Origin: Roseivivax sp. GX 12232
GTDB taxonomy: Bacteria; Pseudomonadota; Alphaproteobacteria; Rhodobacterales; Rhodobacteraceae
Assembly (NCBI RefSeq): GCF_021272185.1
Contig: NZ_JAJSEC010000001.1
Location: forward strand, 620,001-684,000
DNA length: 64,000 nucleotides
Reading direction: 5' to 3'
The position numbers and the translations under genes were made by a program. Below, piece by piece: positions 45,990 through 57,635 of the stretch (the first letter of the stretch is position 1; every line of letters starts with the position of its first letter). Under the pieces are notes generated by a model, which worked only from the letters and a program-made list of their open reading frames with translations, was not told the origin of the DNA and made no database searches.

Positions 45990-46152
45990 GCCCCCTCTGT
46001 CCCGGTGCCTGAGATCGCTATCCCTTCGGCGGACCCGCCGCGCCTCGGCGCGCGGGCCTCTCTCCAGAGTGTTGACCAGCAACGGTCCTGAAGCCTGAGA
46101 GTTTCCGGGGCGGTTGCTCCTTCGGCACCGGCCTTGGCCGGTTCTCCCGCTG
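45990..46152 (-). promoter_or_regulatory. Tandem glycine riboswitch before gcvTHP
   Basis: Read leftward, two glycine aptamers follow each other. The first (about 46150-46068) has GCGGGAGA, GCCGAAGGAGCAA, ACTCTCAGGC and ends near CTCTGGAGAG. The second (about 46068-45991) has the CTCTG/CAGAG closing stem, GCCGAAGGGAT, ATCTCAGGCA and GACAGAGG. Such tandem riboswitches usually turn gcv operons on when glycine is high. The first aptamer starts only about 16 bp after the stop of the upstream regulator gene. Confidence 0.93.
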
Positions 46153-46165
46153 CTGCGGCCAGACG

Positions 46166-47292: not shown

Positions 47293-47747
47293 GGGTGAAG
47301 CGGGGTGTGCGCGGGGTGTGGGGCGAAGCGCCCGGCCCGAGTGTGGGGCGAAGCGCCCGGCCCCGGCAATCGCGACACCACCTCCCCTCCCGCTCCCCCT
47401 TCCAACACGCCCCACCAGAGGGCGCGCGCCGGACCGGGGGCCGGCGCTGCTGACCTCCGAGCTATGCGCTTTATCCCCGCAAGGTCATTGCTAGAGGCGA
47501 TTTAAGCACACCACCCCAAGGAGCGCCGGCCCATCGGGCCGGTCCGGCGCGCGCCCGGCATCTTCGATGCTTTTCGGGCGCAAGGGGGCGCTTCGGGGGC
47601 AGAGATAGTTAGGGGGTGTTGGCGTTGGAGGGGCGCGGGGGCTGCCTTGGGGCGCTTTTACCGCCCACAGGCTCCATGATCAGGCGTCAGCGCCGCGCTA
47701 CCCCCGACCAACCGGCCCGGAGACAACCCAAAACGCCCTCAGCCCCC
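47293..47747. other. Convergent gap holding repeat element copy A
   Basis: 455 bp without a gene. Copy A of the dispersed element fills 47412-47585. GC-rich flanks include two partial copies of a TGTGGGGCGAAGCGCCCGGCCC unit near 47318 and 47342. Confidence 0.6.
47412..47585 (+). repeat. Dispersed repeat element, copy A
   Basis: Left arm 47420-47448 (29 nt), spacer 47449-47521 (73 nt), right arm 47522-47556 (35 nt), tail hairpin to 47585. The right arm is the reverse complement of the left arm apart from a 6-nt bulge. The tail stem is GCATC/GATGC. A short CCACCAGAGGGC lead-in is shared with copies D and F. Confidence 0.9.
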
Positions 47748-49076
47748 TCACCCCTTCTTCGCCCGCACCACCTGCATCAGCGGCATCACGTCGGCCATCT
47801 CGGGCCCGCGGTCCATGCCGGTCACGGCGCGGCGGAGCGGCATGAAGAGACCCTTGCCCTTGCGGCCGGTCTGCTCCTTCACCGCCTGGGTCCAGGTCGC
47901 CCAGGTCTCCGCGTCATAGGGCGGCTCGGGCAGGAGCGTCATGGCCTCGGCCACGAAATCCGCGTCCTCCGGGTCGATCTTCGGATCGCCGCCTTCCGAG
48001 AACATCCGCCACCAGCCGGCGAGATCACCGCGCGTGGTGATATTCTCCCGCGCCACCTGCCAGAACAGCGGCGCCTTGTCCTCGGGCACGCCGAGGGCCG
48101 CGATCTCCTCGGCCACGTCCTCGTAGGAGAGCCGGTGCAACTTGCGCGCGCTCAGCGGATAAAGGTCGTTCACGTCGAACTTCGTCGGCGCCGAGCCGAA
48201 CTGCGAGAGTTCGAACCCCTCGGCCACCTCCTCGAGCGAGAGCCGCAGCTCCACCGGCTGCGAGGAGCCGAGCCGCGCCATCAGCGACCAGAGCGCCTCG
48301 GGCTCGACGCCCGCCTCGCGCAGGTCCTTGAGCGCCAGCGTGCCGAGCCGCTTCGAGAGGCTCTCGCCCGCGGGGCCGGTCAAGAGCGAGTGATGCGCGA
48401 AGGCCGGGTGATCGGCGCCGAGCGCGGCCATGATCTGGATCTGCGTCGCGGTATTGGTCACATGGTCCGAGCCGCGCACCACATGGGTCACGCCGAACTC
48501 CACGTCGTCGACCACCGAGGCCAGCGTGTAGAGGAACTGCCCGTCGGCGCGGATCAGCACCGGGTCCGAGACCGAGGCCGCGTCGATGGAGATCGCGCCG
48601 AGGATGCCGTCTTCCCATTCGATGCGCTGGTGCTCGAGCTTGAAGCGCCAGTGCCCGTCGCCGCGCTCCTGGCGCAGCGCCGCCTTCTCGTCCTCCGAGA
48701 GCGCCAGCGCCGCCCGGTCGTAGACCGGCGGGCGGCCCATGTTGAGCTGCTTCTTGCGCTTCAGGTCGAGCTCGGTGGGGGTCTCGAAGGCCTCGTAGAA
48801 CCGGCCCTTCTCGCGCAACTCGTCGGCCGCGGCATGGTAGCGCTCGAGCCGTTCGGACTGGCGCTCCACCCGGTCCCAGCCGAGGCCCAGCCACTCAAGG
48901 TCGCGCTTGATGCCGTCGACGTATTCTTCCTTCGACCGCTCGGGGTCGGTGTCGTCGATGCGCAGGATGAAGGTGCCGCCGGCCTTCTTCGCGATCAGGT
49001 AATTCATCAGCGCAGTGCGCAGGTTGCCCACGTGGATATGGCCGGTGGGCGAAGGGGCGAAGCGGGTGACGGTCAT
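47748..49076 (-). CDS. gltX: Glutamate-tRNA ligase
   Basis: A 442-residue class I synthetase with HIGH as PTGHIHVGN (10-18) and KMSKS as SLSKRLG (near 240). The length is that of the shorter alphaproteobacterial GltX; such genomes often carry two paralogues, one of which may charge tRNA-Gln, so discriminating or not cannot be told here. The ATG at 49076 is the usual N-terminus MTVTRFAPSPTG; the extension upstream lacks sense. The gene diverges from the thpR-like gene by 142 bp. Confidence 0.95.
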   Translation of the reverse strand: MTVTRFAPSPTGHIHVGNLRTALMNYLIAKKAGGTFILRIDDTDPERSKEEYVDGIKRDLEWLGLGWDRVERQSERLERYHAAADELREKGRFYEAFETPTELDLKRKKQLNMGRPPVYDRAALALSEDEKAALRQERGDGHWRFKLEHQRIEWEDGILGAISIDAASVSDPVLIRADGQFLYTLASVVDDVEFGVTHVVRGSDHVTNTATQIQIMAALGADHPAFAHHSLLTGPAGESLSKRLGTLALKDLREAGVEPEALWSLMARLGSSQPVELRLSLEEVAEGFELSQFGSAPTKFDVNDLYPLSARKLHRLSYEDVAEEIAALGVPEDKAPLFWQVARENITTRGDLAGWWRMFSEGGDPKIDPEDADFVAEAMTLLPEPPYDAETWATWTQAVKEQTGRKGKGLFMPLRRAVTGMDRGPEMADVMPLMQVVRAKKG

Positions 49077-49218
49077 GGTCCTGTCCCGGGCTTTGGGGTG
49101 ACTACGAAGGCTGCGTCTTTCACAAAGGCCGGGTCTTGTCCATATCGCGGCCCTTGCGTGGGGCCCGGCCATGGGTCAAGCCTCGGGCCTGATGCTGCCC
49201 GGTTTTGCGAGGTTTCCC

Positions 49219-49749
49219 ATGCGCGCCTTTCTCGCCCTGCCCCTGCCGCCCTCGGATGCCGAGGTGCTGGAGGCCATGGGCGAACGGCTGGGCTTCGGCC
49301 GCGCGCTGCCCTCGGAGTCCCTGCATCTGACGCTGGCCTTCCTGGGCGAGGTCGAGGAGGCGCTCCTGCGCGAGGCCGCCGATGCGCTCGAAACCCTGAG
49401 CCCGCCGCGCTTCCAGTTCCGGCTTTCCGGCATCGCGAGCTTCGGCACCGCGCTGGCCATGGAGGCCGAGGGCGGTGCCGCCCTGCGCGACCTGCAGGCG
49501 CGGGTGAAGTCGCGGCTCGTCGGCGCGGGGCTGGTGCTCGAGCGCCGCCGTTTCCGCCCGCATGTCACCTTCGCCCGCCTGCCCGAGCGGCTGACGCCCG
49601 AGGAAGAGGGCAAGCTCGCGCGCTTCCTCGGGGTGGAGAGCCGCATGGCGGTCGAGGAGATCCCCGCCGAGGAGGTGGTGCTCTACGAGTCGATCCTGAC
49701 CAAGGACGGCCCGGTCTACGAGCCGCTGGCGGAGTTCCCGCTGAGCTGA
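49219..49749 (+). CDS. thpR: RNA 2',3'-cyclic phosphodiesterase (2H family)
   Basis: A 176-residue 2H phosphoesterase, bilobed, with the two HxTx motifs HLTLAF (near 35) and HVTFAR (near 114). It hydrolyses 2',3'-cyclic phosphates on RNA ends and was first described as a 2'-5' RNA ligase. The ATG at 49219 gives the expected start MRAFLALPLPP. Single gene; the next copies of the dispersed repeat begin 30 bp after its stop. Confidence 0.9.
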   Translation: MRAFLALPLPPSDAEVLEAMGERLGFGRALPSESLHLTLAFLGEVEEALLREAADALETLSPPRFQFRLSGIASFGTALAMEAEGGAALRDLQARVKSRLVGAGLVLERRRFRPHVTFARLPERLTPEEEGKLARFLGVESRMAVEEIPAEEVVLYESILTKDGPVYEPLAEFPLS

Positions 49750-49778
49750 GGGGGCGGGCGTTGCGCGCGACGTCGACG

Positions 49779-49945
49779 GAGGGCGCGCGCCGGACCGGGG
49801 GCCGGCGCTGCCGACCTCGGAGCGAGGCGCTTTATCCACGCAAGGTCAGGGCTCGCAATGAGCTATGCACGCCACCCCAAGAAGCGCCGGCCCAAGGGGC
49901 CGGTCCGGCGCGCGCCCGGCACCTTCGGTGCTATTCGGGCGCAAG
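49779..49945 (+). repeat. Dispersed repeat element, copy B
   Basis: Left arm 49781-49809, spacer 73 nt, right arm 49883-49917, tail to 49945 with the stem GCACC/GGTGC. The bulge reads AAGGGG instead of ATCGGG. The CCACCAGAGGGC lead-in is absent. Confidence 0.9.
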
Positions 49946-50023
49946 GGGGGCGCGGGGAATTGAGGTGTCGGCTTGTGCAATGAGCACTGGGCAGAGTTGG
50001 CGCCATGCCACCCTCTCGACACG

Positions 50024-50198
50024 CTCCGCCAGAGGGCGCGCGCCGGACCGGGGGACGGCGCTGCTGCCCTGCGAGCTATGCGCTTTATCGCGGCAAGGTC
50101 AGGGCAAGCGATAAGCTGTGCACGCCATCCCAAGAAGCGCCGGCCCATCGGGCCGGTCCGGCGCGCGCCCGGCACCTTCGGTGCTATTCGGGCGCAAG
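50024..50198 (+). repeat. Dispersed repeat element, copy C
   Basis: Left arm 50034-50062 (one base differs from consensus: GGGGGACGG), spacer 73 nt, right arm 50136-50170, tail stem GCACC/GGTGC to 50198. The lead-in reads CGCCAGAGGGC. Confidence 0.9.
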
Positions 50199-50374
50199 GG
50201 GGGCGCGGGCGGTGATTGGGGCGCGAAGTTATCGGTGGTGGGGTTTTCGGCGGTGGAGGAAGGTCGCCACCGTCTTAAGGAACGCACCGTTGCTGCCCAA
50301 GCCGCGACCGTCTAACCGTAGCCCCGCACCTCTCACCAAAGCGCCGACCATCACACCGAGCCCCCAAAGCCCCC

Positions 50375-50803
50375 TCAACTCCCCCGCACCGGCCAATGCC
50401 GCGCCAAATCCTCGAGCCCGGCGCGGATCAGCTCGCCCAGCACCCCGGTGTCGATCCGCTCGAGCCGGGTCACGTAGAGACAGGACCGCCCGGTGCGATG
50501 CGGCCCGAGGCGCGCGAGCAGCGGGCCGAAATCGGCGTAGCCCGGCAGGATGTAGATCGACAGCGCCGAGGCCCGCGGCGAGAAGCCGGTCGCCAGGAAA
50601 TGCCCCGAGCGCCCCGAGGCATAGGTGTAATCGTAGCTGCCGTAACCGACGATGCTCTCGCCCCAGAGGACCGGCTCCCAGCCGGTCGCGGCGCGGAAGA
50701 TCGCGTCGAGCGCCACGCCCTCGGCGCGCCGCCGCTGGGGCGTCACACATTCGAGGAACGCGGGCACCGAGGCGCCGGTCGGGCGGGTCTTCAACTCTGC
50801 CAT
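50375..50803 (-). CDS. DUF1801 domain protein
   Basis: A 142-residue protein with the DUF1801 fold: an N-terminal TRPTGASVPAFLE, the EPVLWGESIVGYGSY strand, YILPGY and C-terminal YVTRLERIDTGVLGELI. Family members are small basic-groove proteins of unknown role, often annotated as YdhG-like. The ATG at 50803 gives the family's normal start MAELKTRPTG. It is divergent from the zincin gene at 50909. Confidence 0.85.
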   Translation of the reverse strand: MAELKTRPTGASVPAFLECVTPQRRRAEGVALDAIFRAATGWEPVLWGESIVGYGSYDYTYASGRSGHFLATGFSPRASALSIYILPGYADFGPLLARLGPHRTGRSCLYVTRLERIDTGVLGELIRAGLEDLARHWPVRGS

Positions 50804-50908
50804 GCCCCCAGCCTGCCCCGAATCGCGGCCTTTGCCCAAGCGCCTCTGGTCATCGCGTCCGCCCCGCCCCACATTCGCGGGACGTCAGACGCGAGACGGG
50901 AGAGACAG

Positions 50909-51298
50909 GTGCCCGAGGTCAGCCTCGAAGAGATGGAAGAGATGGCGCGGCGGGCGATCGCCGCCCTGCCCCCGGCCTTCGCGCGCGGGGCGGCCGAGAT
51001 CGTCCTGCGCGTCGAGGACTGGCCCGACGCGGAGATCCTGCGCGAGCTGGAGATCCCCGACCCGATCGAGCTCACCGGCCTCTACGACGGCATCCCGATG
51101 ACCGAGAAAAGCGTCGCCGACCCGGCCCCCTGGCCGGACACGATCTGGCTTTACCGCGAGCCGATCCTGGCCGAATGGCGCGACCGCGGCGATGTCGAGA
51201 TCGAGGACCTCGTGGCCCATGTCACCGTGCACGAGCTGGCGCATCACTTCGGCTGGTCCGACGAGGACATCGCCACGATCGACCGCTGGTGGGAATGA
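50909..51298 (+). CDS. Zincin-like metallopeptidase family protein
   Basis: A 129-residue protein of the small zincin family (PF06262 type) with the metal motif HELAHHFGWSD near residue 108: HExxH with the extra ligand Asp. The start is GTG (50909), with GGGAGA upstream; the next internal Met would lose the conserved N-terminal helix. Whether members are true peptidases is not settled. Single gene, divergent from the DUF1801 gene. Confidence 0.85.
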   Translation: MPEVSLEEMEEMARRAIAALPPAFARGAAEIVLRVEDWPDAEILRELEIPDPIELTGLYDGIPMTEKSVADPAPWPDTIWLYREPILAEWRDRGDVEIEDLVAHVTVHELAHHFGWSDEDIATIDRWWE

Positions 51299-51300
51299 GC

Positions 51301-51367
51301 GCGGCCTAGCTCGCCCGCGCCCCGAACCCGCGGCCTGGCTCGCCCGCGCCCCGAAGCCGCGGCCCGG
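51301..51367. repeat. 29-bp tandem repeat
   Basis: Two copies of a 29-bp unit (GCGGCCTAGCTCGCCCGCGC..., 51301-51329 and 51330-51358; two differences) plus a partial third, between the convergent zincin and nadE genes. Confidence 0.75.
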
Positions 51368-51393
51368 AGGCGGACAAGCCCCGCGCGCCCCGC

Positions 51394-53055
51394 CTACCGC
51401 CGCCCGTCGCGCCAGCGGTTCACCACCGGGTAGCGCCGGTCGAGCCAGAAGGCCTTGGGCGTCAGCCGCACCCCCGGCGCCGACTGGAAGCGCTTGTATT
51501 CCGAGAGATAGAGCAGGTGCTCCACCCGCACCGCGTCGGCGCGGTCGAAGCCCGCCGCCACGCAGTCGTCGATCGAGCCGTCCTGTTCGATCAGCACCTC
51601 GAGGATGCCGTCCAGCACCTCGTATTCGGGCAGCGAATCGCTGTCCTTCTGATCGGCGGCCAGCTCCGCCGAGGGCGGTTTGGAGATCACCCGCTCGGGG
51701 ATCACCAGCCCCTCGGGGCCCTTCATCCAGCTGCGGTGATTGGCGTTGCGCCAGCGGCAGGTCTCGAAGACGCGGGTCTTGTAGAGATCCTTGATCGGAT
51801 TGTAGCCGCCCGCCATGTCGCCGTAGATCGTGGCATAGCCCACCGCGACCTCGGACTTGTTGCCGGTGGTCAGGAGCATCTCTCCGAACTTGTTCGACAG
51901 CGCCATGAGCAGGAGCCCGCGCAGCCGCGACTGCAGGTTCTCCTCGGTGACATCCGGCGCGCGGCCCTCGAAGAGCGGCGCCAGCGTCTCGGTGATCGCG
52001 TCGCGGCCTTTGGCGATCGGCACGAAGTCGTAAGGCGACCCGAGGTTGCCGGCCACCGCCTTGGCGTCCTCGAGCGAATGCTCCGAGGTATACTCCGAGG
52101 GCAGCATCACGCAGCGCACGTTCTCGGGCCCGATGGCATCGGCGGCGATCACCGCGACCAGCGCCGAATCGACCCCGCCCGAGAGCCCCAGCAGCACCTT
52201 GGAGAAGCCCGACTTGCCGAGGTAGTCGCGCAGCGCCTCGACCATGGCGCGGTAGTCCTGTTCCCAGGTGTCGGGCTGGGCGGCGATCGGGCCGGGCTCG
52301 GCGCGCCAGCCGGCCTCGGTGCGGGTCAGGTCCACATGCGTCACGGTCTCGTCGAAGACCGGCAGCCGGCAGGCGAGCTGCCCGCCGGGGTTCAAGACGA
52401 AGGAGCCGCCGTCGAAGACCTGGTCGTCCTGGCCGCCGACCATGTTGAGATAGATCAGCGGCAAGCCGGTCTCGACGCTGCGCGCGACCATGTGGTTCAG
52501 CCGTTCGTCGTGTTTCTCGCGGTGGTAGGGCGAGCCGTTGGGCACCAGCAGGAACTCCGCGCCGGTCTCCTGGTGGGTCTCGGCCACGTCCTCGAACCAG
52601 GCGTCCTCGCAGATCGGGCTGCCGATCCGGGTGTTGCCCACCGCGTAGGGCCCGCCCATCGGCCCCGGCGTGTAGAGCCGCACCTCGTCGAAGACCGCGT
52701 AGTTCGGCAGGTGGTGCTTGAGGACCGCGGTGCGCACCTCGCCGCCCTGCAGGATCAGGTAGCCGTTGAAGAGCTCGGCGCCCTCGAGCCAGGGCGCGCC
52801 GATGGCCAGCGCCGGGCCCTCGGCGCAGTCGCGGGCGAGCGCGCGGACCTCCTCGATGGCGGCGGCGTGGAAGGCGGGCTTCTGGATCAGGTCCTGGGTC
52901 TGGTAGCCGGTGATGAACATCTCGGGCAGCGCCACGAGGTCGGCCCCCGCCGCGCGGCCCGCCTCCCAGGCGTCGCGCGCCTTGGCGCGGTTGCCGGAGA
53001 GGTCTCCGAGGGTCGGGTTCAGTTGCGCCAGCGTCAGCCGGAACTTATCGGGCAT
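51394..53055 (-). CDS. nadE: NAD+ synthase, glutamine-hydrolysing
   Basis: A 553-residue enzyme. The N-terminal nitrilase-type glutaminase domain (about 1-260) carries the Glu (LPEMFITGY), Lys (KHHLPNY) and Cys (PICEDAWF) triad; the C-terminal synthetase domain has the P-loop GLSGGVDSAL and STGNKSE-like segment TGNKSEVAVGYATIYGDMAGG. It amidates nicotinate adenine dinucleotide to NAD+ with ammonia from glutamine. Normal length. Confidence 0.96.
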   Translation of the reverse strand: MPDKFRLTLAQLNPTLGDLSGNRAKARDAWEAGRAAGADLVALPEMFITGYQTQDLIQKPAFHAAAIEEVRALARDCAEGPALAIGAPWLEGAELFNGYLILQGGEVRTAVLKHHLPNYAVFDEVRLYTPGPMGGPYAVGNTRIGSPICEDAWFEDVAETHQETGAEFLLVPNGSPYHREKHDERLNHMVARSVETGLPLIYLNMVGGQDDQVFDGGSFVLNPGGQLACRLPVFDETVTHVDLTRTEAGWRAEPGPIAAQPDTWEQDYRAMVEALRDYLGKSGFSKVLLGLSGGVDSALVAVIAADAIGPENVRCVMLPSEYTSEHSLEDAKAVAGNLGSPYDFVPIAKGRDAITETLAPLFEGRAPDVTEENLQSRLRGLLLMALSNKFGEMLLTTGNKSEVAVGYATIYGDMAGGYNPIKDLYKTRVFETCRWRNANHRSWMKGPEGLVIPERVISKPPSAELAADQKDSDSLPEYEVLDGILEVLIEQDGSIDDCVAAGFDRADAVRVEHLLYLSEYKRFQSAPGVRLTPKAFWLDRRYPVVNRWRDGRR

Positions 53056-53116
53056 GATCCGTCACCTTGCAGTGGTTTGCCGCCCACATAGCAGAACGCC
53101 ACGCGAGGGGAAGTGT

Positions 53117-53156
53117 GGGTGGGGGTGTTGGGTGGTTGGGCGGCGGGGTGGTTGGG
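53117..53156 (+). other. Potential G-quadruplex tract
   Basis: Six runs of three or more G lie within 40 bases (53117-19, 121-125, 130-132, 138-140, 145-148, 154-156) with loops of 1-5 bases. This meets the usual rule for an intrastrand G-quadruplex. It is 62 bp from the nadE start, on the strand opposite the nadE message. Confidence 0.55.
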
Positions 53157-53309
53157 TGGTCGCGGGTGGCTTGGTGGATGTGTGGACGACCGGATGGCGG
53201 ATGACGGTTGATCTGAAGGACGACGGTGATTGTACGGACGGCATCCCGTGTTGACGCTTGGAGAGCTCGCGCGGCCGCTCCCAGGCGCCCGGAACCACAG
53301 CACAACCAA

Positions 53310-53484
53310 GCCCACCAGAGGGCGCGCGCCGGACCGGGGGCCGGCGCTACCGCCCTCCGAACTGCGCGCTTAATCCACGCAAGGTCAGGGCTAGCGATGA
53401 TCGGCGCACACCACTCACAAGAGCGCCGGCCCAAGGGGCCGGTCCGGCGCGCGCCCGGCATCTTCGATGCTATTCGGGCGCAAG
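53310..53484 (+). repeat. Dispersed repeat element, copy D
   Basis: Left arm 53320-53348, spacer 73 nt, right arm 53422-53456, tail stem GCATC/GATGC to 53484. Lead-in CCACCAGAGGGC present. Confidence 0.9.
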
Positions 53485-53521
53485 AAGGCGCAACGCTCTC
53501 CAAGGTCGGGGGCCAACAAGT

Positions 53522-53553
53522 GTCCGGCATCTCCGATGCTGTTCGGGCGCAAG
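53522..53553 (+). repeat. Solo tail hairpin of the dispersed element
   Basis: A second copy of only the tail (CGGCATCTCCGATGCTGTTC and CGGGCGCAAG) follows copy D after about 37 bp. Its stem is GCATC/GATGC with a TCC loop. Confidence 0.75.
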
Positions 53554-53784
53554 AAGTGGGTCTGCGACGGCTGGGGCGCCAAAATGAGTGGCGTTTGGGT
53601 GTTCGGGCCCATTTGGCGGTGAGTGGCACCAAGGCCCACCACCCGAAATCCCAAGACACCTCCCCCCTGCCACCCAACCGCCCCCCTCCCCCTCTCCGGG
53701 AAAGCCGTTGTGTCAGCCCCCCGCCTTCACTAGTTTCGACACAAGCCCGCAGCACGCGGCCAATCTGGGCGGGGCAGAGCAGAC

Positions 53785-55272
53785 ATGGCATTCCACAAGG
53801 GACTTTCGCGCGCGGCGCTCCTGGCCGCGCTCTTCGCCGCAGCCGGGGCGGGGCTCGCCCAGGACGGCGAGGTCATCACCAAGCAATACGACGACGGCGG
53901 CGTCTACGAGGGCACCTTCCAGGACGGCCTCCAGCACGGCACCGGCACCTACCGCCTGCCCAATGGCTACGAATACACCGGCGAATGGGTCGCGGGCGAG
54001 ATCCGCGGCCAGGGCGAGGCGCGCTTTCCCAACGGCTCGGTCTACGAAGGCGAGTTCGAGGCCGGCAAACCGGACGGCGTGGGCCGGATCATCTTCGCCG
54101 ACGGCGGCACCTACGAGGGCACCTGGGTCGACGGCAAGATCACCGGCAAGGGCATCGCCGTCTATGCCAACGGCGTGCGCTACGAGGGCTCCTTCCGCAA
54201 CGCCCTGCACCACGGGCGCGGCACCATGACCTCGCCCGGCGGCTACACCTACGAGGGCGACTGGGTGAACGGCCAGAAGGAAGGCAACGGCACGATCACC
54301 TACCCCGACGGCTCGGTTTACGAGGGCCGGGTCTCGGCCGGCCAGCGCGACGGCGAGGGCAAGCTGACCATGCCCGACGGGCTGATCTACGAAGGCATGT
54401 GGGACGACGGCCAGATCGACGGCACCGGCACGCTCACCCAGCCCAACGGCGATGTCTACGAGGGCGAACTCGTGGCCGGCCGCCGCGAGGGCCAGGGCAA
54501 GGTCACCTATGCCAACGGCGATGTCTACGAAGGCGCCTTCGTCGCCGACCAGCGCGAGGGTGAGGGCACCTTCCGGGGCCAGGACGGCTATGTCTACACC
54601 GGCCAATGGGTCGGCGGCGAGATCGAGGGCCAGGGCCGGGTGAGCTATCCCGACGGCTCGGTCTACGAGGGTGAATTCGCGGGCGATCTCGCCAATGGCC
54701 GCGGCAAGATCACCTATCCCGACGGCTCGACCTACGAGGGCGACTGGGTCGAAGGCGTGATCGAAGGCCAGGGCCGCGCCGAATACGCCAACGGGCTGGT
54801 CTACGAAGGCGGCTTCGTGAACGCCAAGAACCACGGCCAGGGCGTGATGACCTACCCCGACGGCTACCGCTACGAGGGCGCCTGGGTCGAGGGCGAACGC
54901 GAAGGCCAGGGCACCGCCACCTATCCCGACGGCACGGTCTACACCGGCGGCTTCCAGGACGGCGAGCGTCACGGAGAGGGCCGGATCGAGATGCCCGACG
55001 GCTTCAGCTACGAGGGCGACTGGGACAATGGCGCGATCTCCGGCGAGGGCGTGGCGACCTATGCCAACGGCGATGTCTACGAGGGCACCTTCGTCGAGGG
55101 CAAGCGCCAGGGCGAGGGCACCATGCGCTACGCCACCGGCGAGGAAGCCAGCGGCGACTGGGTCAACGGCGCCCTGACCGGCGGCACCGCGGAGGCGAGC
55201 GGGGCCTCGGAGGCGGGTGACGGCGAGGACGGCGCGGACGGCGAGGACGGCGAAGCGGGCGAAGGCAACTGA
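53785..55272 (+). CDS. Secreted MORN-repeat protein, 18 repeats
   Basis: A 495-residue protein: signal peptide MAFHKGLSRAALLAALFAAA with cleavage near AQA-like GLAQ (about residue 26), then 18 MORN repeats of exactly 23 residues (GxxYEGxWxxGxxxGxGxxxYxD type, about residues 39-450) plus a degenerate nineteenth, and an acidic Gly/Asp/Glu tail. MORN arrays form a long beta-hairpin ribbon that binds other proteins or membranes; here it would be periplasmic or outside the cell. No enzymatic domain is visible. Neighbours give no hint. The repeat number is high for a bacterial protein. Confidence 0.9.
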   Translation: MAFHKGLSRAALLAALFAAAGAGLAQDGEVITKQYDDGGVYEGTFQDGLQHGTGTYRLPNGYEYTGEWVAGEIRGQGEARFPNGSVYEGEFEAGKPDGVGRIIFADGGTYEGTWVDGKITGKGIAVYANGVRYEGSFRNALHHGRGTMTSPGGYTYEGDWVNGQKEGNGTITYPDGSVYEGRVSAGQRDGEGKLTMPDGLIYEGMWDDGQIDGTGTLTQPNGDVYEGELVAGRREGQGKVTYANGDVYEGAFVADQREGEGTFRGQDGYVYTGQWVGGEIEGQGRVSYPDGSVYEGEFAGDLANGRGKITYPDGSTYEGDWVEGVIEGQGRAEYANGLVYEGGFVNAKNHGQGVMTYPDGYRYEGAWVEGEREGQGTATYPDGTVYTGGFQDGERHGEGRIEMPDGFSYEGDWDNGAISGEGVATYANGDVYEGTFVEGKRQGEGTMRYATGEEASGDWVNGALTGGTAEASGASEAGDGEDGADGEDGEAGEGN

Positions 55273-55800
55273 GGGTCTAGGCGGGGCGGGTGACGGCTCG
55301 AGCGAGGCAGCCCCAAAAGGATGCGGTCCCCAGAGGATGCAGCCCCCGAAAAGGTGGGACTCTGCACCCCCGCCCAACCCTTGGGAAACCATCCCCGCCC
55401 CCTGGGCATAGATCCACCCCACACCTAGAAAGCCCCCGCCCCCAGAGCAGGCGCAGGGCGCGCGGCGGAACGGGGGCCGGCGCTACTGACCTCCGAGCAG
55501 CGCGCTTTATCCCAACAAGGTCAGGGCTAGGGGATAGCTAAGCACGCCACTCACAAGAGCGCCGGCCCAAGGGGCCGGTCCGGCGCGCGCCCTGCGCCTG
55601 CGGCGCGGTCCGGGCGCAGGTTGCGAGAGCGGTTGGCGCAGCGCGCAACTCCGACGCAGAAGGCGTCACCCGCCGAAACCCAGATCAGAATGGCGTGAAA
55701 CCCGGGTAATCTTCCCCAATCGCCCCCCGCGCTCTGCCTAGATCTCCTCGCAGGCTACCTCGGAACGCCTCACCACCGCACCGCCCCAAAGGAGACCGCC
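55273..55800. other. Gap holding repeat copy E
   Basis: 528 bp between two rightward genes; copy E of the element lies at 55451-55620. No gene seen. The hydrolase-OsmC gene starts behind AAAGGAG. Confidence 0.6.
55451..55620 (+). repeat. Dispersed repeat element, copy E, most diverged
   Basis: Left arm 55456-55484 (three differences), spacer 73 nt, right arm 55558-55592, tail to 55620. Its tail stem is changed on both sides (GCGCC/GGCGC with a TGC loop), so pairing is kept. Confidence 0.88.
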
Positions 55801-57006
55801 ATGCCGACCGAGAAACTCACCTTCCCCGGCGCCAATGGCGACCTTCTCGCGGGCCGGCTCGACCTGCCGGCAGGGCCACCCCGCGCCGCCGCGCTCTTTG
55901 CCCATTGCTTCACCTGCGGCAAGGACATCGCCGCCGCCCGCCGCATCGCGGGGCAGCTCGCCGCCGAGGGCTTCGCGGTCCTGCGCTTCGACTTCACCGG
56001 CCTCGGCCATTCCGGCGGCGAGTTCGAGAACACCTCCTTCACCTCGAACGTGGATGACCTCGTGGCCGCCGCCGAGGCCCTGGCCGCCCGCGACCTCGCG
56101 CCTGCGCTGCTGATCGGCCATTCGCTCGGCGGCGCGGCGGTGCTGAAGGCCGCGGGCCAGATCCCCTCGGCCCGGGCGGTGGCCACCATCGGCGCGCCCT
56201 GCGACCCCGGTCATGTCACCCATAACTTCGCCGCCGCCCTGCCACAGATCGCCCGCGAGGGCGTCGCCGAGGTCTCGCTGGCCGGGCGGCCCTTCCGCAT
56301 CGGCCAGGGCTTCGTCGAGGATGTCTCAGAGGCCCGGCTCGCCCCTGCCATCGCCGGGCTGAAACGCGCGCTCCTGGTCCTGCACGCCCCGCGCGACGCC
56401 ACGGTCGGGATCGAGAACGCCACGGCGATCTTCTCCCACGCCAAGCATCCGAAAAGCTTCGTCACGCTCGACGAGGCGGACCACCTGGTCAGCCGCCCCG
56501 AAGACGCCGAATACGCGGCCTCGGTGATCACCGCCTGGGCCCGGCGCTACCTCGATCTGCCCGCGCCGCCCGCCCGCCCCGAAGCGCCCGAGGGCGTGGT
56601 GCGCGTGACCGAGAACGACGCCGCGGGCTTCCTGCAGGACGTGGTCGCCGGGCCGCATCACATCACCGCCGACGAGCCGGAAGCGGTGGGCGGCAGCGAC
56701 CAGGGGATGACGCCCTACAACCTGTTGTGCGCGGCGCTCGGCGCCTGCACGGCGATGACGCTCCGGCTCTACGCGCGCCGCAAGGGGCTGCCGCTGACCC
56801 ATGTCGAGGTCGACGTCTGCCACGACAAGCGCCACGCCGAGGACGCCGCCTCGGGGGGTGCCAAGGTGGATGTCTTCCACCGCGTGCTGCGACTCGAAGG
56901 GGATCTCGACGAGGAGACGCGGGCGCGGCTCCTGGAGATCGCCGACAAATGCCCGGTGCACCGGACGCTGGAGCCCGGCGCGAAGGTGGTGACGGCGTTG
57001 GGGTGA
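55801..57006 (+). CDS. Alpha/beta hydrolase-OsmC fusion protein
   Basis: A 401-residue fusion. The N-terminal alpha/beta hydrolase (about 1-255) has the HCFTCGKD oxyanion area, the nucleophile elbow GHSLGG and the catalytic His near LDEADHL; the C-terminal OsmC/Ohr domain (about 265-401) has its two peroxidatic cysteines in LGACTAMTL and DKCPVHRTLE. The pair suggests hydrolysis of an organic ester or peroxide together with thiol-dependent peroxide reduction. This fusion occurs in many proteobacteria. Shine-Dalgarno AAAGGAG lies just upstream. Confidence 0.92.
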   Translation: MPTEKLTFPGANGDLLAGRLDLPAGPPRAAALFAHCFTCGKDIAAARRIAGQLAAEGFAVLRFDFTGLGHSGGEFENTSFTSNVDDLVAAAEALAARDLAPALLIGHSLGGAAVLKAAGQIPSARAVATIGAPCDPGHVTHNFAAALPQIAREGVAEVSLAGRPFRIGQGFVEDVSEARLAPAIAGLKRALLVLHAPRDATVGIENATAIFSHAKHPKSFVTLDEADHLVSRPEDAEYAASVITAWARRYLDLPAPPARPEAPEGVVRVTENDAAGFLQDVVAGPHHITADEPEAVGGSDQGMTPYNLLCAALGACTAMTLRLYARRKGLPLTHVEVDVCHDKRHAEDAASGGAKVDVFHRVLRLEGDLDEETRARLLEIADKCPVHRTLEPGAKVVTALG

Positions 57007-57210
57007 GGGCGTGTTGGGCGCGGAGCTTACGCGGCAGGCTCCACGCGGCGCTCCGCCTGGATCGGCGCCCGGGGTGAGGGGCCTGTTGCGCGCGAAGCCT
57101 GCGTGCGTCGGGCTTAATGGTTCGCTCCGCGCAGATCGGCGCCCACGGGTGAGGGGCGTGTTGGACGCGGAGTCTGCCTGCGGCGAGTTCAACGGTTCGC
57201 AGCGCCCGGT
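57001..57210. repeat. Three imperfect tandem units of about 70 bp
   Basis: Units begin GGGTGAGGG near 57001, 57072 and 57147; the first contains the stop codon of the hydrolase-OsmC gene. Conserved parts are the start and a GATCGGCGCCC near each end. Confidence 0.7.
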
Positions 57211-57300
57211 CCCTCCTTGCGCCCAATTCGGCCCAGCGCCCCTGCACGCCAGGCGCTGTTGCGCTGCCGACGCCCTCCATCACCCCCCCCTCTCACCAAG

Positions 57301-57474
57301 CCCACCAGAGGGCGCGCGCCGGACCGGGGGCCGGCGCTTCCGCCCTCTGAGCTGCGCGCTTTATCCCAACAAGGTCAGGGCTCAATGTGAGCTATGCGCG
57401 CCACCCCAAGGAGCGCCGGCCCATCGGGCCGGTCCGGCGCGCGCCCGGCACCTTCGGTGCTATTCGGGCGCAAG
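57301..57474 (+). repeat. Dispersed repeat element, copy F
   Basis: Left arm 57310-57338, spacer 73 nt, right arm 57412-57446, tail stem GCACC/GGTGC to 57474. Lead-in CCACCAGAGGGC present. It lies between the convergent hydrolase-OsmC and photolyase genes. Confidence 0.9.
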
Positions 57475-57581
57475 GGGCGCTGGCTGGAGGCGCAGCCCTT
57501 CGAACTGACGCATAGACGAACTGGGGGTTCTTGGCAGCGCCCAGGGTTCAAAAAGAGCGCTTGGGCTGCGGGCGTAAGTTG

Positions 57582-57635
57582 CTCTGAAGGCTCTGAAGGC
57601 TCTGAAGGCTCTGAAGGCTCTGAAGGCTCTGAAGC
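57582..57635. repeat. 9-bp perfect tandem repeat, six units
   Basis: GCTCTGAAG repeated six times without error in the convergent gap before the photolyase gene. The unit length is a multiple of three, but no supported gene reads through it. It could vary in copy number by slippage. Confidence 0.9.

Follow-up and report, generated by a model that had tools for sequence, protein, structure and literature searches.

A candidate family of dispersed, probably mobile hairpin-DNA repeats in Rhodobacteraceae

We favour, at moderate confidence, assigning the six long palindromes of the window (the whole stretch of 64,000 nucleotides analysed here) to a new family of non-coding, non-autonomous, dispersed hairpin-DNA repeats of Rhodobacteraceae that probably moves as DNA. 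The copies probably spread through the gaps between genes, and their behaviour may be likened to that of REP, ERIC and MITE repeats. The mobile reading rests on about 250 copies in the host genome, family-wide spread, copy-number differences within the genus and element-free sites in relatives; against it, strong conservation of the arms is equally expected from a host function. The earlier note on this DNA spoke of a six-copy element, a number that turns out to be an effect of the window. With up to two mismatches allowed, an 18-nt outer arm matches the host genome 245 + 254 = 499 times vs. 10 + 9 = 19 times for the reversed control, which at two arms per copy amounts to the ~250 copies. In a model search of the host genome all 150 scored candidates fitted, i.e. 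there are at least 150 copies.

Copies in the window and anatomy of the element

All six copies lie on the + strand with a layout of 29-nt left arm, exactly 73-nt spacer and 35-nt right arm, as the earlier note had described, and the core motif has six window matches vs. 0.01 expected. The starts it gave were 2–10 nt too low; the left arms of A to F begin at 47420, 49781, 50034, 53320, 55456 and 57310. Its description of the right arm as the reverse complement of the left one, save for a 6-nt bulge, is accurate for the extra bases (ATCGGG in copies A, C and F, AAGGGG in B, D and E) and too strict for the stems of C and E, which are imperfect owing to one and two left-arm changes, respectively. 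A profile search of both strands (E ≤ 1e-5) gave no further full copy in the window, in agreement with the claim that the first 47 kb hold none. The limits of the element had been drawn too narrowly, since it also includes a roughly 25-nt tail bearing a second hairpin that competes with the first. The features are as follows.

47420–47556, + strand: copy A, long hairpin with arms of 29 and 35 nt and a 73-nt loop; ranked second in the genome by model score
47557–47581, + strand: copy A tail, with small hairpin GCATC-TTC-GATGC, TTTTC, then a tail foot GGGCGC able to pair with the right foot
49781–49917, + strand: copy B, long hairpin
49918–49942, + strand: copy B tail
49953–50025, + strand: spacer of the B–C doublet, short S type
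50034–50170, + strand: copy C, long hairpin, with the single left-arm change
50171–50195, + strand: copy C tail
53320–53456, + strand: copy D, long hairpin
53457–53481, + strand: copy D tail
53500–53556, + strand: partial extra right-end module 3' of copy D, 77% to the right end of copy D (profile match 53519–53563)
55456–55592, + strand: copy E, long hairpin, left arm with two changes
55593–55617, + strand: copy E tail, variant hairpin GCGCC-TGC-GGCGC
57310–57446, + strand: copy F, long hairpin
57447–57471, + strand: copy F tail

The anatomy was derived from 102 distinct host copies. As a single strand, the element forms a long hairpin of 18 + 11 bp enclosing the 73-nt loop, which carries a conserved CTTTAT core. 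Conservation amounts to 98–99.9% in the arms and 84% in the loop; 97 copies have a loop of 73 nt, and 95 a total hairpin length of 137 nt. The bulge begins with AAG (51 copies), ATC (45), ATA (5) or TAG (1), and the small second hairpin 3' of the long one occurs in two main matched forms, GCACC-TTC-GGTGC (60/102) and GCATC-TTC-GATGC (31/102). The element is taken to be about 160–180 bp long and non-coding; annotators should be warned that open frames cross many copies. Folded as single-stranded DNA, copy A beats all 200 shuffles, as does a copy taken from another genus, and each of them forms the long hairpin. The loop word TTATCC is suggestive of DnaA boxes, but other genomes conserve only CTTTAT (by eye), and this candidate was dropped.

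Several other features of the window were recorded alongside. Six perfect head-to-tail copies of the 9-nt unit GCTCTGAAG lie at 57581–57634, between copy F and a photolyase-like gene. The gap of copy F also holds, at 57003–57205, about three imperfect tandem units of 75 nt that start at the stop codon of the upstream gene (by eye). A protein of 495 amino acids with many repeats of 69-nt period, presumably MORN-like, is encoded at 53785–55272 (+ strand). Two adjacent glycine riboswitch aptamers at 45993–46159 (− strand) precede − strand genes that we take to be gcv genes.

Placement, spread and a possible host function

Placement was analysed in 464 kb, comprising the window and 20 stretches fetched because they bear copies and hence not a random sample, in which 72 copies were found. 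According to home-made gene calls, overlap with a gene exceeds 40 nt in none of the 72, in keeping with the earlier statement that no gene is interrupted. Convergent gaps are over-represented, making up 20 of the 49 element-bearing gaps and 35 of the 243 element-free ones (p = 7e-5, odds ratio 4.1), and divergent ones account for 4 of 49 vs. 49 of 243 (p = 0.065). Both figures speak for a host-functional gene-end element selected at each place, such as a transcription stop or insulator between convergent genes, a protection of mRNA 3' ends, or a nucleoid or gyrase site. The arms, far better conserved than the loop, point the same way, as do adjacent doublets, whose members have a common orientation in all 21 pairs and a spacing of 317–321 nt in nine of them. 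A host role at gene ends is possible, and this explanation of the element is credible if doubtful, as copy number runs from 0 to at least 150 within the genus, and relatives retain the convergent neighbours around element-free gaps of −4 to 153 nt. Moreover, terminator-like sites number 2 in 12 kb where 5.1 are expected, neither on a copy, and nothing points to the T run of an intrinsic terminator.

The gaps themselves are unusual. After subtraction of 180 nt per copy, those bearing an element have medians of 434–643 nt, vs. 72–198 nt for element-free gaps; they are longer than the element accounts for, and the moved unit is therefore not defined. In 31 single-copy gaps, complementarity between the two flanks does not exceed that of swapped flanks (p = 0.15–0.26), which speaks against the whole gap as one giant palindrome. 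Flanks are G-rich before and C-rich after the element, a composition that may stem from neighbouring genes. The 21 doublet spacers include nine of 137–141 nt and four of 73–82 nt and show weak sequence similarity; a spacer profile, S, matches few sequences beyond those it was trained on, so that its matches are mostly circular.

Relative to flanking codirectional genes the orientation is mixed (15 islands same, 10 opposite). The sign of the local GC skew is followed by 38 of 51 islands (p = 6e-4); an orientation set by replication is not claimed, since contig C37 opposes the trend and skew also tracks gene direction. The suggestion of the earlier note that the window cluster grew by local duplication did not hold up: copies of the same stretch are no more alike (0.8374) than copies of different stretches (0.8375), adjacent doublets being slightly closer (0.859). 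Linkage between variable sites falls from an r2 of 0.19 for neighbours to 0.020 at 9–15 nt and a background of 0.010 beyond 60 nt, a decay that either recombination among copies or independent drift could explain.

Across the family, a sample of 149 genomes (one per genus, host included) yields 73 positives (E ≤ 0.001), with strict filters and 21 candidates scored per genome, so that counts per genome are lower bounds. In a class-wide sample under strict filters, the host and one more genome of the same family were positive among 190. Within the genus, the genomes hold at least 150, 60, 37, 30, 6, 4, 2, 0 and 0 copies. The matches listed from other genomes measure 138–144 nt, a length range which the search model itself favours; this is the opposite of a variable spacer without pairing. 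Genome G181 gave two weak and shorter matches (70 and 115 nt). One gene type, presumably parE-like, lies 0.1–1 kb from a copy in four genera, but the other neighbours differ, and it was rejected as a conserved ancestral locus.

Copy A has no match among plasmids and phages. One element type from another genus matches three plasmids from two Rhodobacterales genera, while another type has no plasmid match. Among viral contigs one element pattern has no match; a second has one, which lies ~500 bases from an integrase-like gene and, by inference, near one end of the contig, and is probably host flank. At a viral contig end by an integrase-like gene (L288:172-420), a full element is directly preceded by a lone left end whose first 20 bases are about the same as those of the adjoining element (both by eye). 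A diverged element-like stretch lies close to nadE in one congener (L211:847-985) and likewise in Roseivivax lentus (L061:13062-13201), the two probably being one genome; the stretch scores 41 bits in L211 and may be a decayed copy or a chance resemblance.

Orthologous gaps in congeners are predominantly empty, with 19 of 20 comparisons, not independent of one another, lacking the element and one filled. At site A the host gap is 455 nt and those of five congeners, all element-free, are −4 to 153 nt; two further congeners, in which the genes are more than 1 kb apart and no element was found, were left out of the count. The gap at site B/C is 625 nt in the host and 4 nt, element-free, in one congener. 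None of eight congeners has the element at site D, and none of three at site E. At site F, the host gap of 719 nt corresponds to an element-free 4 nt in one congener, and a second congener has a gene-like stretch in the gap (by eye) and no element. In G005, the 288-nt gap of site F holds a reversed element complete with its tail hairpin (by eye), and the reversal shows that simple inheritance does not apply. Inheritance would account for a further site, where host and congener carry elements in the same orientation between the same convergent genes, each element being of the type found in its own genome. Empty sites could also have arisen by loss in the relatives rather than gain in the host.

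Paired changes and the nucleic acid form of the element

The stem was assessed across genera in a set of 44 sequences and a second set of 41. In both, the two-part stem exceeds 500 of 500 shuffles on five measures and every slid control. In the set of 41, 93.0% of the cells of the stem are paired, vs. 79.2% in shuffles and 36–40% in slid controls, and doubly changed stem pairs number 17 vs. 11.1 in shuffles. The conserved stem proposed earlier is thus borne out, pairing being maintained through double changes across genera.

The right foot has a second partner. On its 3' side follow a variable small hairpin, often the word TTGATTC or similar, and then a tail that repeats the left foot. A complement of the right foot of at least 6 nt occurs in the own tail of 51 of 60 copies, vs. 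37% for tails swapped between genomes of differing feet and 12.5% for shuffled tails. Both pairings are retained throughout the set of 41 at one position of the foot while the letters vary (GCG 25, CGC 13, TAT 3), i.e. left foot, right foot and tail co-vary in three-way paired changes. Pairing of the tail helix reaches 93.7%, vs. 79.2% shuffled and 33–54% in slid controls; it is weak on two of the five measures, the number of doubly changed pairs (reached by 13 of 500 shuffles) and the number of pair types (reached by 181 of 500). In some copies of G026 the left foot is unpaired and the tail still pairs. As the right foot is common to both, the long hairpin and the right-end hairpin are mutually exclusive.

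Covarying helices, a conserved loop core and a stable RNA fold are also what a structured RNA family (a small RNA or 3'-UTR element, with RNA as the functional form) would display. For a selected RNA strand, G–U is expected to be commoner than A–C. Summed over helices, G–T and A–C mismatches are near equal, 24 vs. 20 in the 41 sequences (P1, P2 and P4) and 31 vs. 29 in 61 non-host copies, which gives no sign of an RNA strand and is not proof of DNA. Single helices deviate: G–T exceeds A–C in P1 of the mixed set (14 vs. 5; P2 9 vs. 14) and in P2 of the host copies (13 vs. 3; P1 13 vs. 16), although one recurring variant makes up 11 of the latter 13. A search of the window with Rfam 15 returned only the two glycine riboswitch matches, away from the copies; a second search gave two weak matches beside copy A, far under their gathering scores. 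The copies are without match to any Rfam RNA family, consistent with the earlier note, which had recognised no known family. Together with the mixed orientation to codirectional genes, these data make an RNA family decidedly unlikely.

Search for a mover, known repeats and proposed steps

The earlier note likened the layout to a non-autonomous MITE-type element, which is apt for the behaviour and finds no support in target duplications or a Y1 transposase. No target-site duplication was found in the host, the best offset pair being shared by 4 of 100 copies with fuzzy outer limits, and the longest flanking direct repeat measures 5.79 nt vs. 5.69 nt for swapped flanks (100 copies). The Y1_Tnp profile (PF01797, RAYT/Y1) has no match in the host genome and is positive in 5 of 14 control genomes, which speaks against RAYT mobilisation in the host. 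In four genomes with a single listed copy each, no transposase was recognised among the open reading frames called next to it; these frames are presumably uvrB, parB and clp-type, secY and lepA genes. A classical MITE, derived from an insertion sequence by internal deletion and mobilised by a DDE transposase that acts on matching terminal repeats, would share the inverted terminal arms, the dispersal, the lack of genes and the size below 500 bp, but is very improbable: no target duplication was found, no autonomous copy was seen beside the copies of those four genomes, and the 73-nt loop is too strictly sized, with too many conserved positions, for leftover transposase DNA.

Among known systems, REP/BIME repeats with their RAYT enzymes (PMC2817692) are similar in being high-copy extragenic palindromes that form arrays with spacers in gene gaps. 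REPs are short, with a GTAG/GTGG-type foot, whereas the present element spans 137 nt plus tail and shows GTAG/GTGG at the foot in none of 102 host copies and in one of 41 family sequences. REP arrays alternate in orientation, unlike the uniformly directed doublets found here, and the host lacks a RAYT-type Y1 match. ERIC, NEMIS and similar intergenic imperfect palindromes of 100–160 bp resemble the element in size, location near 3' ends, a long hairpin and a mover that is not known (PMC1590033, PMC2267715). They belong to other lineages, and the comparison is one of size and place. Neither three-way foot pairing nor a tail hairpin is known from ERIC/NEMIS-type repeats. A conserved single-strand hairpin with extra-helical bases on one arm is shared with attC and attC-like DNA (OTH-22-1, PMC8632094). 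Unlike in attC, the RYYYAAC and GTTRRRY end boxes are absent: on the given strand, no host copy (0/102) or family sequence (0/41) has both at its ends, and a single box anywhere occurs in 5 of 102 and at most 2 of 41, respectively. The ends of IS200/IS605 elements are recognised through pairing of guide and cleavage-site sequences. The present element likewise has an internal segment able to pair with both ends, and differs in its far longer stem, the lack of an internal gene and the lack of a Y1 match in the host. A literature search by title and abstract gave no description of the element, which does not imply its absence from print.

Under the favoured reading of a mobile DNA repeat, the hairpin would be the form recognised by an enzyme acting in trans, and the two alternative foldings may represent steps of cutting and joining. 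New copies would persist mostly between convergent genes, where they presumably do least harm, and the doublets of uniform orientation could arise by tandem amplification of element plus spacer. A bolder version, which we consider unlikely, is a new class of single-strand mobile element. Here, the right foot would act as a guide pairing in turn with its left-end and right-end partner copies, thereby marking both ends for a non-Y1 enzyme; the two exclusive hairpins would be the cut-and-join states, and the element would have multiplied independently in many Rhodobacteraceae genera, its end sequences differing between lineages while staying matched within each copy.

In summary, the Rhodobacteraceae, a family that attracts wide interest, harbour a high-copy, family-wide and strictly structured element without Rfam 15 match. 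The three-way co-variation of its feet yields a precise, testable prediction of a bistable DNA structure, and its presence or absence over 149 genera offers a handle on the enzyme behind the movement of such palindromes in the absence of RAYT.
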